This document shows, in pieces, positions 39,709 through 46,214 of a DNA stretch of 64,000 nucleotides. The stretch's first letter is position 1. Every line of letters begins with the position of its first letter. The notes below the pieces were generated by a model. It saw nothing but the letters and a program-made list of their open reading frames with translations, did no database searches and was not told the origin of the DNA. The DNA is from Epilithonimonas mollis (GTDB taxonomy: Bacteria > Bacteroidota > Bacteroidia > Flavobacteriales > Weeksellaceae): positions 248,001-312,000 of the forward strand of contig NZ_FRAM01000003.1 of NCBI RefSeq assembly GCF_900142325.1, in the 5' to 3' direction. Both the position numbers and the translations under genes were made by a program.

Positions 39709-39978
39709 TTATTTTCTGATTCCTAATTCAGCGATAATTGCTCTATATCTGTTGATATCTTTTTTCTTCAAATAATCTAAAAGAGCTTTTCTTTTACCTA
39801 CTAACTTTACAAGAGATCTTTCTGTGTTGAAATCTTTGTGGTTAGCTTTCAAGTGCTGAGTCAAGTGGTTGATTCTAAAAGTGAATAGAGCAACCTGTCC
39901 TTCAGCAGTTCCTGTGTCCTGTGCAGATTTACCGTGCTTTGCGAAAATTTCTGCTTTTTTTTCTGTTGTTAAATACAT
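39709..39978 (-). CDS. rpsO: 30S ribosomal protein S15
   Basis: 89 residues, full length for S15. Binds 16S rRNA in the central domain of the small subunit. The N-terminus MYLTTEKKAEIFAKHGKSAQDTGTAEGQ in parts and the signature TFRINHLTQHLKANHKDF with RSLVKLVGKRKALLDYL match the family. Monocistronic with its own -7 element and terminator; no pnp gene is adjacent. In some bacteria S15 regulates its own translation by binding its leader. The 38-nt leader here is too short to show a known S15 motif. Confidence 0.96.
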   Translation of the reverse strand: MYLTTEKKAEIFAKHGKSAQDTGTAEGQVALFTFRINHLTQHLKANHKDFNTERSLVKLVGKRKALLDYLKKKDINRYRAIIAELGIRK

Positions 39979-40015
39979 TCCAATATTGTTTAATGATTAT
40001 TATGTAATTCGGGTG

Positions 40016-40023
40016 CAAAGATA
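40016..40023 (-). promoter_or_regulatory. -7 element for rpsO
   Basis: The minus strand reads TATCTTTG (TAnnTTTG), 38 nt before the ATG at 39978. No -33 TTG in range. Confidence 0.5.
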
Positions 40024-40214: not shown

Positions 40215-41549
40215 TTACCGCTTCTCCTCCATCAAAAATTGTTTCACCACTTCAAAATCCGCTGGAAATTCCACAGTTTTTTTTTCTTTTTTATTAAAAG
40301 CTTCAAGTTTTTCCGGAATGATAATTTTTTCATTCAAAACCTCTTCCACCACTTCCACAAACTTTGCAGGATGAGCAGTTTCTAATAAAACCCCAACAAA
40401 ATCTCCACTTACTTTGTCACTCTGAGCCAAGCCTGTCCTGAGCTTGCCGAAGGATCGAAGAGCCTCTAATCCCAAATAAGCAACCGCGCCGTGCGGATCA
40501 AGTATATAATTATATTCCTTCTTCACATTTTGCATTGCAATCTCAGTCTCTTTATCGGAAAAAGAATAAGATTCAATTTCTTTTCTGAACTCCGTAACAT
40601 CATCATTGAACAAGCTTTTCATCCGTTCAAAATTACTAGGATTTCCAACGTCCATTGCATTACTGATGGTTTGTTTGGAAGGTTTTGCTTCGTAATTCCC
40701 TGTTACCAAGAACTTAGGAATCACATCATTTTCATTGGTCGATGCAATGAATTGATGAACTGGCAATCCCATTTTTTTTGCAAAAAGTCCAGCGGTAAGG
40801 TTTCCAAAATTCCCGCTTGGAACTGAGAATACAATTGGTTTTCCTAATTTTTGAAGTTGCGCAAAAGCCCAGAAATAATAAAACGATTGCGGAATCAGTC
40901 TGGCGATATTGATACTATTTGCAGATGTCAACGTGAATTTCTGATTCAATTCTTCATCGGACAAAATTTGTTTTGCCAAAGCCTGGCAATCGTCAAAAGT
41001 GCCGTCGATTTCCAGAGCTTTGATATTTCCGCCCCAAGTTGTCAACTGTTTTTCCTGCAACGGACTTACTTTTCCTTTAGGATAAAGAATAAAAACCTCG
41101 ATTCCCGGAACATCAAAAAATCCTGACGCAACAGCACTTCCCGTATCGCCGGAAGTTGCGGCAATCACTTTCATAGGTTTTCCTTCTGAAAAATAAGACA
41201 TCATTCTCGCCATAAATCTTGCGCCGACATCTTTGAAAGCCATCGTCGGACCGTGAAATAATTCCAGAGAATAAATATTCTCAGAGATTTTCACAGCCGG
41301 AATTTCAAAATTTAAAACCTCATTGATGATTTGTTTCAAATTATCGTCCGAAATGGAATCGCCGAGAAATTCCTTTGCTACACGGAAACCGATTTCCTGT
41401 AAAGTGAGATTCGGTAAATTTTCAAAAAAATCAGAATCCAATTTTGGAATATATTCTGGCATAAAAAGTCCGCCGTCATCGGCTAAACCTTTGAGAATTG
41501 CTGTTTTTATATCGGTTTCCTGTCGTTGTCTTGTTGATATATATTTCAT
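40215..41549 (-). CDS. thrC: Threonine synthase
   Basis: 444 residues. PLP enzyme that converts O-phosphohomoserine to threonine, the last step of the pathway. PLP-binding Lys in FHGPTMAFKDVGARF (~95-109), AATSGDTGSAVASGFF (~142-157) and the phosphate-binding SVPSGNFGNL are intact. An unusual segment at ~364-379 (LRSFGKLRTG, then LAQSDKVSG) is the in-frame translation of a dispersed DNA repeat (40431-40460 and flanks). It sits between GLEA and FVGVLLETAHPAKF in the C-terminal part. Last gene of thrABC. Confidence 0.96.
   Translation of the reverse strand: MKYISTRQRQETDIKTAILKGLADDGGLFMPEYIPKLDSDFFENLPNLTLQEIGFRVAKEFLGDSISDDNLKQIINEVLNFEIPAVKISENIYSLELFHGPTMAFKDVGARFMARMMSYFSEGKPMKVIAATSGDTGSAVASGFFDVPGIEVFILYPKGKVSPLQEKQLTTWGGNIKALEIDGTFDDCQALAKQILSDEELNQKFTLTSANSINIARLIPQSFYYFWAFAQLQKLGKPIVFSVPSGNFGNLTAGLFAKKMGLPVHQFIASTNENDVIPKFLVTGNYEAKPSKQTISNAMDVGNPSNFERMKSLFNDDVTEFRKEIESYSFSDKETEIAMQNVKKEYNYILDPHGAVAYLGLEALRSFGKLRTGLAQSDKVSGDFVGVLLETAHPAKFVEVVEEVLNEKIIIPEKLEAFNKKEKKTVEFPADFEVVKQFLMEEKR
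40414..40465 (-). repeat. Interspersed repeat inside thrC
   Basis: Plus strand GCCTGTCCTGAGCTTGCC followed by GAAGGATCGAAG (40431-40460) plus flanking GTCACTCTGAGCC (from ~40416). It is a dispersed Bacteroidetes repeat whose translation SFGKLRTG turns up in many unrelated proteins. Here it keeps the thrC frame open. A fragment of the same type lies at 18124. Confidence 0.6.
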
Positions 41550-41715: not shown

Positions 41716-42642
41716 TCAAATAACTCTTGCGCCTTCGTCATTAATTTTCGTTACAAAGGATTCGCTTTCTATATTTTTTTGATTAAGTAATTTCTTGATT
41801 TTGAATGAAATTTCTTCCGCTGTTCCTTTGTTTTTGCACAATGCAAAAACGGAAGGACCGGAACCTGAAATCCCAAAACCAATCGCTCCGTTGTCCAAAG
41901 CGAGCTGTTTCATCTCATAAAAATACGGAATCAGCATCGCACGAACCGGCTCTATGATAACATCTTCCAGACTTCGGCTGACCAAATCCAGATCGTTGGT
42001 GCAGAATCCGGCAACCAAGCCTGCAACATTTCCCCACTGTTGAACAGCGGATTTCAAACTGATTCTATCCTTGATGATTTTCCTCGCCTCGCCTGTCGGA
42101 ACATCCACGTGCGGATGAACGGAAACGACCGACAAATCTTTTGGATAAGGCAATTTCAGCGCATCCAAAGGTTCGTAACTTCTGACTAAAACCAAACCGC
42201 CCAAAAGTGCAGGCGCCACATTGTCGGCGTGAGCATTTCCACAAGCAATTCGTTCGCCTTCCATTGCTAGTGGCAACAATTCTTGTTTTGAGTAAGGTTT
42301 TCCCATCAATTCATTTATGGCGACCAAAGCAGCAACACTGCTCGCTGCGCTGGAGCCCATTCCACTGTTAAGAGGCATTTTTTTGTACAATTCAATATCA
42401 ATTCCCTGGTTAGAATTTATTTTTTCGAGAAATAATCTGATCACGTGAGAAACCACATTTTTAGCAGGATCTTTGGGAAGTTTCCCGCCATCGCCTTCGA
42501 TTTTTGTAATGATGATTTGATTGAAATCGTTCTTCCGCAGGATGATTTCATCACCCGGCTCTTTTATTGCGAAACCTAGAATATCATAACCGCAGACAAC
42601 ATTGGCAACTGTTGCAGGCGCAAAAACTTTTATAGAATCCAT
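41716..42642 (-). CDS. thrB: Homoserine kinase
   Basis: 308 residues, GHMP kinase. Phosphorylates homoserine with ATP. The ATP loop PLNSGMGSSAASSVAAL (~90-106), the N-terminal KVFAPATVANVVCGYDILGFA and the C-terminal AIGFGISGSGPSVFAL are all present. Full length. Second gene of the operon, 67 bp after thrA and 166 bp before thrC. Confidence 0.95.
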   Translation of the reverse strand: MDSIKVFAPATVANVVCGYDILGFAIKEPGDEIILRKNDFNQIIITKIEGDGGKLPKDPAKNVVSHVIRLFLEKINSNQGIDIELYKKMPLNSGMGSSAASSVAALVAINELMGKPYSKQELLPLAMEGERIACGNAHADNVAPALLGGLVLVRSYEPLDALKLPYPKDLSVVSVHPHVDVPTGEARKIIKDRISLKSAVQQWGNVAGLVAGFCTNDLDLVSRSLEDVIIEPVRAMLIPYFYEMKQLALDNGAIGFGISGSGPSVFALCKNKGTAEEISFKIKKLLNQKNIESESFVTKINDEGARVI

Positions 42643-42709: not shown

Positions 42710-45151
42710 TTATTGTGCTGTAACTCTCACCAAATCTGCAAAGACTCCGGCAGCTGTTACTTCTGCACCTGCGCCCGGACCTTTTACAACCAAAGGTGTA
42801 TTTCTGTATCTTGAAGTTGTGAATGAAATGATATTGTCGCTTCCAGACAATCCGAAAAAAGGATGATCCGAATTTACAATCTGAACTTCGATGTTGATTT
42901 TTCCGTGTTCCAAAACACCAATTAATCTCAGTTTTCTGCCAGAACTTTCTGCTTCGTTTTTGAAAGATGAGAAATAATGTTCGTGTTTTTCTAATTCTTC
43001 GTAAAAAGCAGGAATTGATTCTGCTTGGAGACAAGCTTCAGGAAGAAAATCCTTGATACTGACATCGGACATTTCCAATGGCAAGCCAATTTCTCGTCCA
43101 AGAATCAGCATTTTTCGGGAGAAATCCATTCCATTCAGATCATCTCTCGGGTCCGGTTCTGTATATCCTAATTCCTGCGCCGTTCTTACAACTTCGGCAA
43201 AAGTTTTTTCACCAACGTAATTATTAAAAATGTAAGAAATTGTTCCGGATAAAATAGCTTCGATTTTCAAAATTTCGTCACCTGAAATCCACAAATCATT
43301 TAAAGTTCTGATGATTGGAAGTCCTGCTCCAACATTGGTTTCATACAGGAAATTGACATTGTTCTTCTTCGCCAGTCTTTTGAATTTGCTGTATTGCTCA
43401 AACGATGAGGAATTTCCCTTTTTGTTGCAAGTGACAATCGAAATATTATTATTGAATAGATCAGGATAATGTTTCACAACGTCTTCACTGGAAGTATTAT
43501 CGACGAAAACTAGATTCGGTAAATTTTTACTGGCAATTAATTTGATAAACGATTCCAAATCTGTTTTTTGAGAATTTTCATTTTCGATTTCTAAATTAAA
43601 AATGGATTCCGGATTATCAATTAGCTGCATCGTTCGGCTGTTGGAAATCCCAACCACATTGATTTTGATCTGATGATTTTCAGCCAAATTTTTCTTTTCC
43701 CTTTCCAGTTGCCTGAACAATTCCTTGCCAATATTTCCTGTTCCCGCAAACATTACATTGAAGGTTTTCACGTGCGAAAGTAAAAGTGAATCGTGAACAA
43801 CATTTAGTGCTTTCGACAATTCATTTCGTTCAATGACGGCAGAAATATTAAGTTCAGACGAACCTTGTGCAATTGCGATAATATTGATCCCGTTTTTGCC
43901 CAAGGCACTGAAAAATTTACCACTAATCCCTCTTGTTTTCTTCATATTCTCGCCAACAACGGAAATGATACTTAGGTCGTTATCAAATTGCGGTTCATCG
44001 ATTTTGTTGGAATCCAATTCAAATTCAAACTCTTCCCGGATGGCTTTTCCGGCCTTTTTCTCGTCATTAAAATTAACAACAAACGAAATACTATGCTCGG
44101 AACTGGCCTGTGTAATCAGGATGATATTCACGTCATATCTCGCCAGAGCATTGAATAATCTTCCGCTGAAACCCTTCATCCCAATCATCCCGTTTCCGGT
44201 GATATTGATGAGACAGGTTTTCTCGATGGAGACAATTCCTTTGATCAAACCTTTGGAAATTTCGGATTTCTGATGAATTAAAGTTCCTGGATTTTCCGGT
44301 TGAAAAGTATTTCTGATATATATCGGAATCTGATTTTCAATCGCCGGAATCATCGTTGGCGGATAAATCACTTTTGCCCCAAAATACGACATTTCCATCG
44401 CTTCCTGATAGCTGAGTTCGGGTTGAGAAAAAGCATTCTTTACCAATCTTGGGTCAGCCGTTAGAAAACCGTCAACATCTGTCCAGATCTGGATTTCATC
44501 CGCTTTTAACCCTGAAGCTAAAATCGCCGAAGTATAATCTGAACCGCCTCTACCTAGCGTTGTTGTATCTTGATTTTCATCTGATGCGATGAAACCTGTC
44601 ACAACATAGATGTGATTACCGAGTGTCCAATTGTTTAGATTTTCGTTTGTTTTTTTGGAATCAACGTTAGCATTTCCGAAATGAGAATCGGTTTTGATTA
44701 ATTCTCTTGCATCTTGGAAAACGGCAGGAAAACTTTCTGAATTGAGGAAAGCAGTGATGATTTTGCCGGACATTTGTTCGCCGTAAGACAATAATCTGTC
44801 TTTGATCCTGTCTGACAATTCGCCCAAATTTCTGATACTGAAAAGCAAATCTTCAATCTCATTGAAACTCACTTTCACCATCATCAATAACGGATTCTGG
44901 GCAGTTCTTGGCAATAATCCAGAGATAATCTGATAATGTTTCTCTTCTGCAGATTTCAGAATTCTTGAGAAATCATTTTGTTCTAAAGCTTGTTCTGAAG
45001 CTAGAAGAAGCATGTTGGTAATTCCTGACAAGGCAGAACAGACGACAATCAACGGTTCGTTTTGACTGAACTCCTTTTCTACAATTAGCTTTACATTTTG
45101 CAAAGCTTCCAAACTTCCGACTGAAGTTCCTCCGAATTTTAAAATTTTCAT
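42710..45151 (-). CDS. thrA: Bifunctional aspartokinase / homoserine dehydrogenase I
   Basis: 813 residues. N-terminal aspartokinase (~1-290, MKILKFGGTSVGSLEAL and TTLGRGGSDYTSAILA), two ACT regulatory domains (~310-450, with CLINITGNGMIGMKGFSGRLF and ISVVGENMKKTRGISGKFF) and C-terminal homoserine dehydrogenase (~460-813, FAGTGNIGKELFRQL, NVGAGLPIIRTLNDL, and GLPLEMSDVSIKDF). It carries out the first and third steps from aspartate to threonine and is usually feedback-inhibited by threonine through the ACT domains. First structural gene after the leader peptide and attenuator. Confidence 0.97.
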   Translation of the reverse strand: MKILKFGGTSVGSLEALQNVKLIVEKEFSQNEPLIVVCSALSGITNMLLLASEQALEQNDFSRILKSAEEKHYQIISGLLPRTAQNPLLMMVKVSFNEIEDLLFSIRNLGELSDRIKDRLLSYGEQMSGKIITAFLNSESFPAVFQDARELIKTDSHFGNANVDSKKTNENLNNWTLGNHIYVVTGFIASDENQDTTTLGRGGSDYTSAILASGLKADEIQIWTDVDGFLTADPRLVKNAFSQPELSYQEAMEMSYFGAKVIYPPTMIPAIENQIPIYIRNTFQPENPGTLIHQKSEISKGLIKGIVSIEKTCLINITGNGMIGMKGFSGRLFNALARYDVNIILITQASSEHSISFVVNFNDEKKAGKAIREEFEFELDSNKIDEPQFDNDLSIISVVGENMKKTRGISGKFFSALGKNGINIIAIAQGSSELNISAVIERNELSKALNVVHDSLLLSHVKTFNVMFAGTGNIGKELFRQLEREKKNLAENHQIKINVVGISNSRTMQLIDNPESIFNLEIENENSQKTDLESFIKLIASKNLPNLVFVDNTSSEDVVKHYPDLFNNNISIVTCNKKGNSSSFEQYSKFKRLAKKNNVNFLYETNVGAGLPIIRTLNDLWISGDEILKIEAILSGTISYIFNNYVGEKTFAEVVRTAQELGYTEPDPRDDLNGMDFSRKMLILGREIGLPLEMSDVSIKDFLPEACLQAESIPAFYEELEKHEHYFSSFKNEAESSGRKLRLIGVLEHGKINIEVQIVNSDHPFFGLSGSDNIISFTTSRYRNTPLVVKGPGAGAEVTAAGVFADLVRVTAQ

Positions 45152-45172
45152 TGATTATATTTTAAAAACAAA

Positions 45173-45200
45173 AAAGCCTTTCTGAAATCAGAAAGGCTTT
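45173..45200 (-). terminator. Attenuator terminator of the thr operon
   Basis: On the minus strand AAAGCCTTTCTGA (45200-45188) pairs with TCAGAAAGGCTTT (45185-45173), a perfect 13-bp stem with a 2-nt centre (a 4-nt loop in practice), followed by TTTT-G-TTTTT-type run. It lies between the leader stop codon and the thrA ATG, 22 nt before the latter. Confidence 0.85.
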
Positions 45201-45241
45201 GTCATTATTGTTGTATTCAAATTCACAAACGCACCTTCCTG
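45189..45241 (-). promoter_or_regulatory. Antiterminator pairing in the thr leader
   Basis: The last codons of the leader (CAGGAAGG, 45241-45234) can pair with CCTTTCTG in the 5' arm of the terminator (45196-45189) over 8 bp with one G-U. With small bulges the pairing extends by C and TTTGT against ACAAAG. This competes with the terminator stem. A ribosome at the leader stop codon would cover this strand and permit termination; a ribosome stalled at the Thr codons would leave it free. Also, CAACTACA with TGTAGGTTG can form a hairpin across codons 13-20. Confidence 0.65.
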
Positions 45242-45300
45242 CAACCTACAGATGTTGTAGTTGTTGATGTAGAAGTGGTTGTTGTAAATGTGAAATTCAT
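45223..45300 (-). CDS. thrL: Threonine-rich thr operon leader peptide
   Basis: 25-codon ORF from the ATG at 45300 to the TGA at 45225-45223. The peptide starts MNFTFTTTTSTSTTTTS and ends VGCRKVRL. Ten of 25 codons are Thr (ACA, ACC and ACT) and three are Ser, with no Ile. It precedes a terminator and thrA, the classic layout of ribosome-mediated attenuation, where charged tRNA-Thr level sets read-through. The C-terminal codons also form the antiterminator strand. It is named by function and position; no sequence homology to the enterobacterial ThrL is claimed. Confidence 0.82.
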   Translation of the reverse strand: MNFTFTTTTSTSTTTTSVGCRKVRL

Positions 45301-45398
45301 TATTATTTGTAAATCTTTAACGAATGTATGAAAACATTTCTTTACTGCAAATTTTTTGAACTATTTATTTTAATTAATTCGATTCAATTCAATAAATA

Positions 45399-46214
45399 TT
45401 ATGATTTAATCAAATGCGTTGGCGAATAACCGAACTGTTTTTTGAAAGCAAAAGAAAAATGTGAAAGATTCTCAAACCCGGTTTCATAATATACTTCGAC
45501 AGGCTTTTTATTTTTCTCGACAAGTTCGTAATACGCCAATTCCAGACGTTTTTTTGTCAGCCATCTTTGTGGTGTGGAATTGAAAGCTTTATAAAAATCT
45601 CTTTTGAAAGTAGTCAAACTTCGGCCAGTCAAATATCCGAATTTTTCCAGAGACATATTGAACATAAAATTCTTTTCCATAAAAGCCACTAAGTCGATTT
45701 TTCCGGGTTCATCAAAGTTATTAAGAACAGAATCTATATTGACATCAATCGTTCTGAGGATATTGATCGCTTCATTTATTTTCAGAGAAGCAATATTTTC
45801 GGGGAAATTATTCTGCATTTCAAAATACGGAATCAGCGAAGCCAGGCAACTTTCCAATAACGGATGCTTCTCAAAACTGATGATTTTTTCTGTTTTTATT
45901 TTTGATTTAATCGAATTATCAGCATAAAATTCTCTAAGGCGTTTTGCTGATAAATGCATCGCAACCGCTTTGTGTGACATTCCGTCTTTCGGATAATTGA
46001 TGATCGTTGCCAATTGATTTCGCGGAATCAGGAAAGTGCGGCCTGCACCGAAAACAAAGCGTTCGTCTGCCTGGATAATTTTGGTCTCACCGGAAATCAG
46101 CCAAACCAGCAAATGATCTTCAAATGCCGCTTCGGTTTTGAACAACTTACCTTCGTAACAGGAAAGCTTGATTTCCGGAGTGATATAATTAACTTTATAA
46201 TCCATATTGCTCAT
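45399..46214 (-). CDS. AraC-family transcriptional regulator
   Basis: 271 residues. N-terminal cupin-like region (~20-110, VWLISGETKIIQADERFVFGAGRTFLIPRN) and C-terminal HTH_18 (~165-270) with LEKFGYLTGRSLTTFKRDFYKAF, TPQRWLTKKRLELAYYEL and HFSFAFKKQFGYSPTHL. ATG codons at 46214 and 46205 are both possible. A -7 box only 5 nt upstream of the first would favour the second. The gene lies 18 bp after the SDR gene on the same strand, so the two may be functionally linked. Confidence 0.88.
   Translation of the reverse strand: MSNMDYKVNYITPEIKLSCYEGKLFKTEAAFEDHLLVWLISGETKIIQADERFVFGAGRTFLIPRNQLATIINYPKDGMSHKAVAMHLSAKRLREFYADNSIKSKIKTEKIISFEKHPLLESCLASLIPYFEMQNNFPENIASLKINEAINILRTIDVNIDSVLNNFDEPGKIDLVAFMEKNFMFNMSLEKFGYLTGRSLTTFKRDFYKAFNSTPQRWLTKKRLELAYYELVEKNKKPVEVYYETGFENLSHFSFAFKKQFGYSPTHLIKS

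Follow-up and report, generated by a model that had tools for sequence, protein, structure and literature searches.

The thr operon on the 64,000-nucleotide stretch of Epilithonimonas mollis DNA analyzed here (the window) is highly likely to be controlled by a ribosome-mediated transcription attenuator, whose antiterminator strand lies inside the end of a threonine-rich leader ORF. The operon, encoded on the minus strand like all leader elements described below, consists of thrA, coding for bifunctional aspartate kinase/homoserine dehydrogenase I (42710..45151; NF006959, 1002.7 bits), thrB, coding for homoserine kinase (41716..42642; NF002288 and TIGR00191, both over cut-off), and thrC, coding for threonine synthase (40215..41549; TIGR00260, 296.8 bits), with identities assigned by NCBIfam. 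Upstream of thrA we confirmed the short ORF pointed out in the preliminary description (45223..45300), which encodes the peptide MNFTFTTTTSTSTTTTSVGCRKVRL and carries a run of codons for the product of the operon. Ten of its 25 codons specify Thr, and all of them fall within codons 4 to 16 (45253..45291; segment 1, the sensor run). Ten Thr in 13 codons is an extreme density, the runner-up among 2367 combinations of start codon and ORF (12-50 codons) in the window having 5. The stop codon is followed after 22 nt by an intrinsic terminator (45173..45200), found by both sequence scan and folding, with the T-rich tract TTTGTTTTTA (45163..45172) 3′ of its stem, and then by thrA, thrB and thrC. The terminator had been described as a perfect 13-bp stem with a T-run. 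Its arms are indeed inverted repeats of 13 bases separated by 2 bases, but a 13th pair would reduce the loop to 2 nt, so that the stem effectively comprises 12 bp with a 4-nt loop, ATTT; the hairpin and the T tract themselves hold. The leader RNA of the window is more stable than all 200 of its dinucleotide shuffles (z −4.4).

The antiterminator strand CAGGAAGGT (45233..45241; segment 2) is located within the ORF tail and begins 16 nt 5′ of the stop codon. Its partner GCCTTTCTG (45189..45197; segment 3) forms the core of the 5′ arm of the terminator and is thus common to antiterminator and terminator. More precisely, CAGGAAGG (45234-45241) is complementary to CCTTTCTG (45189-45196), and adding the next base yields 9 bp, two of them G-U. 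When the leader is shuffled with its dinucleotide composition preserved, 13 of 5000 versions attain a pairing of this length, so that on its own it is moderately unlikely to arise by chance.

From this arrangement we infer leader translation, actual termination, its relief by threonine shortage and, altogether, the function of a switch. RNA polymerase would start some 10-20 nt 5′ of the leader ORF, as judged from a promoter match. When charged Thr-tRNA is scarce, the ribosome would stall within the Thr run, leaving segment 2 free to pair with segment 3, and thrABC would be transcribed. When Thr-tRNA is ample, the ribosome would reach the stop codon and mask segment 2; segments 3 and 4 would then form the terminator and transcription would stop 5′ of thrA. 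If the leader is not translated, segments 1 and 2 (Thr run and tail) may pair with each other, and in the window this 1:2 pairing would shift the outcome towards termination. Where relatives are able to synthesize isoleucine, their runs usually contain Ile codons too, and the operon would also respond to Ile.

To place the window leader among its relatives, thrA homologs were searched in 197 genomes of the family, including that of E. mollis itself, and a scan of named genomes was added. We inspected 70 family loci (L002-L071) out of the 91 full-length thrA matches listed at at least 44% identity; locus L082, found by the scan of named genomes, is the 71st of these 91. Leaders whose ORF contains Thr codons, alone or together with Ile codons, and is followed by a terminator (type I) are present at 33 of the 70 loci. 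Together with L081 and L082 this gives 35 loci, namely, 23 of the Epilithonimonas type (the window counted) and 12 from three other genera. In all 35 type I loci scored, which were chosen by their leader and four of which (L025, L037, L040 and L044) had their leader starts placed by hand, leader ORF, antiterminator and terminator are present together, and a looser terminator scan also marks all 35. Every Epilithonimonas-type leader (23/23) has 8-10 Thr codons, with varying synonyms. At the remaining family loci, a different Thr-run leader (type II, see below) was recognized in 22 of the 70 by script and in a 23rd (L050) by eye, and neither type is in view at 13 (nine loci of g16, L068, L070, L012, which lies at a contig end, and L015). 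At L051 (G063) the 3′ part of a type II leader is kept but the Thr run is gone, so that it looks like a decayed leader. At L015 (G169, a genome of another genus) a transposase gene is situated between a terminator-like hairpin and thrA, the latter 88% identical to the thrA of the window; this gene is a possible candidate for transfer.

The pairing between leader tail and terminator arm recurs in these relatives. The antiterminator strand begins exactly 16 nt 5′ of the stop codon in all 23 Epilithonimonas-type loci (in L082 the longest match begins one base later), a recurrence that is stronger evidence than the shuffle result and bears out the complementarity proposed at the outset. All nine pairs are kept in 22 of these 23 loci, compared with 37-66% paired cells when the strand is slid by 1-5 bases as a control. 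Strand variants CAGAAAGG, CAGGAAGG, CGGAAAGG, CGGGAAGG and TAGAAAGG occur among them, and AAGAAAGG breaks one pair; end pairs are lost in L082 and in L030. In four loci of g23 the strand CAGAAGGG begins 21 nt 5′ of the stop codon, i.e. in a frame different from that in Epilithonimonas, and L030, also of g23, retains seven pairs. In g29 (L025) an 11-bp match starts within the stop codon, at its second base, and TAGAGAGG, immediately 3′ of the stop, is complementary to CCTCTCTA. Compared with Epilithonimonas, one C-G pair has become U-A and one A-U pair G-C (CAGAAAGG::CCUUUCUG versus UAGAGAGG::CCUCUCUA), two compensatory double changes at a single locus, the register of which was set by hand. 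Strand 2 of g29 is still fully complementary, via G-U, to strand 3 of Epilithonimonas, and only the reverse swap drops to 7/9. In g21 the antiterminator is short (6-8 bp): GAGGAG or GGGAAG, whose first base is the third of the stop codon, pairs with CTTCTC (CUUCUC in RNA), and in L040 TTAGAAGA pairs with TCTTCTAA (as RNA, UUAGAAGA::UCUUCUAA). In the slid control the g21 register does not stand out: with a fixed window the nominal register has 67% paired cells versus 77% and 81% one base to either side. Pairs were counted on hand-anchored blocks, as the MAFFT alignment of type I tails shifts the g29 motif by about three columns. Antiterminator and terminator are mutually exclusive in all 35 loci, with segment 3 common to both. 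Since segment 3 pairs with both partners, any change in it needs matched changes in segments 2 and 4, and this double pairing would explain its constancy within the genus.

Conservation of the tail might instead operate at the level of the peptide, the C-terminal CRKVC acting in trans or stalling the ribosome by its own sequence, and the near constancy of SCRKVCL across much of Epilithonimonas is what one would cite for this. Yet g23 reads the RNA motif in another frame, as LPQKGC, g29 and g21 place it at or after the stop codon, and within the genus R has been replaced by G (CRGK in L018 and L021, CGK in L022) through an A-to-G change which retains the pair as G-U. Peptide-level conservation is quite improbable in light of these differences. 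Because the motif stands in another frame, or at or beyond the stop codon, in other genera, the leader tail is probably kept for RNA reasons, as had been suggested before any relatives were compared; the Thr-rich ORF and the pairing proved conserved in them, with the compensatory changes coming from the one g29 locus.

Folding with a ribosome at different positions fits the attenuator. In these computations only RNA downstream of the ribosome was allowed to fold, and the ribosome edge was assumed to lie at a distance of 12 nt from where the A-site codon begins. When a Thr codon, whichever it is, occupies the A-site, segment 3 is paired upstream with a probability of 0.86-0.99 in the 23 Epilithonimonas-type loci; the corresponding values are 0.99 in four of the five g23 loci (0.71-0.76 in the fifth) and 0.85-0.96 in g29. 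When the stop codon occupies the A-site, the antiterminator probability is 0.00-0.17 in all these loci; in the Epilithonimonas type it starts dropping at or just past the last Thr codon. Values for g21 are 0.24-0.66 at the first Thr codon, 0.55-0.84 in the middle and 0.01-0.23 at the last one, which adjoins the stop. Thus, in the computed folds a stalled ribosome frees the antiterminator and a ribosome at the stop codon blocks it, clearly in Epilithonimonas, g23 and g29 and more weakly in g21. Folding without a ribosome varies among loci, the antiterminator probability ranging over 0.04-0.99 overall and 0.11-0.99 in the 23 Epilithonimonas-type loci. It is 0.19 in the window, which indicates that there the tail is held by upstream RNA. 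Before segment 3 is transcribed, pairing between the tail and upstream RNA amounts to 0.45-0.79 in Epilithonimonas-type and g23 loci and to 0.06-0.14 in g21 and g29. Pairing of segments 1:2 stands out from shuffles of synonymous Thr codons (at most 5 of 100) only in L016, L017, L082, four near-identical g23 loci and L040. A 1:2 hairpin as an obligatory third state everywhere was dropped, since it beats the synonymous shuffles at so few loci. In Epilithonimonas the models nevertheless make it likely that a third, untranslated state exists beside the main switch. The compact two-state switch originally envisaged is therefore retained as the main switch but is not strictly two-state, because the tail also pairs with the Thr run.

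A promoter is predicted 20 nt 5′ of the leader start in the window, where TTG-N19-TACATTCG (45321..45350), which we take to be the Bacteroidota-type consensus, is matched. A flavobacterial-type match of this kind is found 16-22 nt 5′ of the leader ATG in all 23 Epilithonimonas-type loci; 5′ of the leader none was found in the five g23 loci or in L037, and L025 has a loose one. Transcripts starting between leader and thrA would have spoken against attenuation. A pattern scan for the flavobacterial-type promoter found no match there in any of the 35 loci, and a scan with a sigma-70 consensus, which is that of E. coli, found weak matches (9 of 12). These results also bear on a second alternative, according to which the terminator serves only the gene upstream of the leader, while the Thr-rich reading frame has arisen by chance or belongs to a small gene with no part in the matter. 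That gene, coding for an AraC-type regulator with an ExsA_N domain (45399-46214), does lie on the same strand directly 5′ of the leader, ending about 100 nt before it. However, the promoter match separates the two, the Thr run is too extreme among the ORFs of the window for a chance reading, and the AraC-type gene was found in just 10 of 32 loci searched (about 1.5 kb each, shorter near contig ends; 9 of 22 Epilithonimonas-type loci, excluding the window itself), while leader, pairing and terminator persist in type I loci. This second alternative is highly improbable.

Attenuation by a threonine-binding riboswitch, a T-box or an RNA-binding protein instead of a translating ribosome would equally fit a terminator with an alternative structure, but it is extremely improbable, since no Rfam family reaches its gathering score within the leader, little is conserved across genera beyond Thr/Ile codons, antiterminator and terminator, and the codon content of the leader tracks the pathway. 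The closest family, RF00506 (Thr_leader), has a gathering score of 55 bits; its score of 23.5 bits in the window leaves the leader outside that class, and in L027 it reaches 27.5 bits, half of the gathering score. Apart from the latter, a search of 17 relatives' loci at E-values up to 1 retrieved only a chance-level STnc220 match (L063) and a sub-threshold Flavo-1 match (L018); the Flavo-1 match (L018:4978-5061, minus strand, 40 versus a gathering score of 42 bits) is far from the leader. Elsewhere in the window, at 39976-40023 (minus strand), there is an S15-Flavobacteria ribosomal protein leader (RF03161, 54.7 bits). The Rfam search of the window found no match to Bacteroid-trp RNA (RF01692), whose link to trp genes we take from its name. 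A table in PMC2864571 presents RF01692 as a candidate cis-regulatory RNA of Bacteroidetes.

The window leader is like the E. coli thr attenuator (thrL) in having a short ORF with Thr codons followed by a terminator 5′ of thrABC. It is unlike thrL in that the antiterminator strand is inside the ORF end, the promoter is of flavobacterial type and the start lacks a Shine-Dalgarno sequence, the last two presumably being habits of the phylum. Most relatives of the window leader also share Ile codons with thrL, for which an excerpt of PMC12925634 gives eight Thr and four Ile codons. Actinobacterial trp and leuS attenuators and cys leaders, as far as the consulted part of PMC1262725 describes them, similarly combine leader peptides containing regulatory codons with mutually exclusive hairpins, but belong to another phylum, concern other amino acids and have no sequence in common with the window. 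Our literature searches found no description of a flavobacterial thr attenuator. Work of Vitreschak and colleagues from 2004 reportedly touches on Bacteroidetes/Chlorobi. In Flavobacterium psychrophilum, clues of leader-peptide attenuation have been reported, although the passage concerned (PMC9723704) specifies no operon, codons or structure, unlike the case of the window. The thr attenuator of the window is very probably genuine, and the notion that no such scheme had been described in flavobacteria holds, as far as our searches go, for the thr case but not for leader-peptide attenuation in general; the novelty is tempered both by that passage and by how widely such leaders occur among related genomes.

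That occurrence became apparent in a survey of his, trp and ilv operons in 10 genomes (that of E. mollis, two more of the genus and seven of other genera). His-run leaders precede hisG in all nine hisG loci, leaders with WWW precede trpE in all ten loci examined (those of the ten top-scoring chorismate-binding hits), and six of nine ilvD loci have leaders judged by eye to be Ile/Val-rich. The script found a terminator in 24 of these 25 leaders. When the ribosome occupies the last regulatory codon, the antiterminator probability is at least 0.63 in 22 of the 24; the two exceptions (L124 and L132) arise at least in part from which terminator or last codon the script selected. When it occupies the stop codon, the probability is 0.00-0.71, and the contrast is not as sharp as in thr leaders. 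RNA behind the ribosome is ignored by the masked fold, a point of importance for trp leaders, several of which have the antiterminator strand 36-20 nt 5′ of the stop. Overall, the antiterminator strands range from 36 nt 5′ to 17 nt 3′ of the start of the stop codon. Predicted antiterminators within or across the end of the leader ORF are thus common in related genomes and not specific to thr. It had been proposed to look for similar tails before other amino-acid operons. A DNA search of the E. mollis genome with the 20-base leader tail, allowing up to 3 mismatches and thus blind to similar peptide tails encoded by different codons, found no copy besides the leader itself, but the trp leader of this genome (L144, G000:C10, 5′ of trpE; MKLMNNKNWWWLSNSLSGLKRLSVF, with the WWW run) has a tail of its own for the same purpose, the antiterminator strand lying 30-20 nt 5′ of the stop. 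The thr and trp leaders are still present in this genome, in which no match to hisG, ilvD or ilvC was found; E. mollis is predicted to be auxotrophic for histidine and branched-chain amino acids. As a separate observation, made by eye, a TTTACTC(A/G)GAC-like stretch 3′ of the his terminator in L116, L117, L119, L122 and L123 (5′ of hisG) shows complementarity both to the loop region of that terminator, GTCTGAGTAA, and to the start of hisG, ATGAGTAAA, and could add control of translation start.

The Ile codons of thr leaders appear to vary with the capacity for isoleucine synthesis. ilvD and ilvC are both missing from the same 7 of 23 genomes of the genus, including that of E. mollis; one of the seven, G078, is without fused thrA. 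The comparison within the genus covers the 21 genomes with a readable leader and omits G078, G153 (leader cut by a contig end; L082, from a 73% complete MAG, is the second copy for this genome) and L184/L185. The total number of Ile codons is 0, 1, 1, 0, 0 and 0 in the six ilvD-less genomes and 1-4 in the fifteen with ilvD, 14 of which have at least 2. Likewise, when the densest 13-codon stretch is considered in each of 72 leaders, types I and II combined, the seven ilvD-less genomes (six of the genus and G175, tested for ilvD alone) have 0, 1, 1, 0, 0, 0 and 0 Ile codons, and the 65 leaders of genomes with ilvD have none in 5 cases, one in 10 and two or more in 50. On the thrA tree of the genus there are three ilvD changes, each with low Ile, and one extra Ile change (L019). 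These events may be counted as two or three, as the placement of L002 apart from L003/L005/L008 may be wrong, their leaders being nearly identical. Outside the genus, G175 contrasts with its genus mate G161 (5 Ile codons). A naive permutation within the genus gives 3 of 54264 but ignores relatedness, and the thrA tree provides just 2 well-supported independent pairs, too few for significance. The association of Ile codons in the thr leader with ilvD/ilvC is accordingly suggestive, not proven, and it is one-sided, because five leaders in genomes with ilvD are Ile-free.

In type II leaders (L046-L050, L052-L067, L069, L071, L094, L097-L101, L106, L110 and L167-L187, all upstream of thrA) the Thr run adjoins the stop codon, where a short putative hairpin ACCCC..GGGGT is followed by a conserved ATTTTCACATAT-like stretch, and an evident intrinsic terminator is missing. 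They occur in g20, g26 and further genera of this family, in a second family of the same order, and in Tenacibaculum records. Scanning 148 genomes of the order with a model built from 24 leaders gave 23 matches, distributed over 22 genomes; 21 of these matches lie within about 170 nt 5′ of thrA and the other two are weak. RNAalifold found just three invariant pairs and no covariation in the hairpin, and an Rfam search of 13 type II loci at E-values up to 1 retrieved a single chance-level sRNA match. Of 31 type II loci, 7 are picked up by the looser terminator scan, compared with 35 of 35 for type I, always at the 6-bp hairpin of the stop codon with a weak T tract; this hairpin may be a weak terminator in some loci. 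One idea, by analogy with mycobacterial cys leaders, is that type II could act by Rho-dependent termination after ribosome release: according to PMC1262725, those leaders have their codons near the stop and no conserved terminator, and in this they resemble type II leaders.

The window provides a specific, testable leader-peptide attenuator for a phylum in which such control has been mentioned (PMC9723704) and for which our literature searches found no dissection, together with evidence for a leader-peptide tail conserved as RNA while frames differ between genera. Type II leaders are candidates for a second mechanism and, if the idea is right, their device would represent an undescribed route of attenuation, e.g. 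Rho-dependent or through polymerase pausing. The link between Ile codons and ilvD/ilvC would be a natural experiment on attenuator sensing and might allow auxotrophy to be predicted from leaders. We tentatively propose, while thinking it somewhat more apt to fail than to hold, that thr leaders consist of an evolvable codon sensor, which sheds Ile as isoleucine synthesis is lost, joined to two unrelated output devices (types I and II). If this is true, the codon content of the leader would record what the pathway still feeds.
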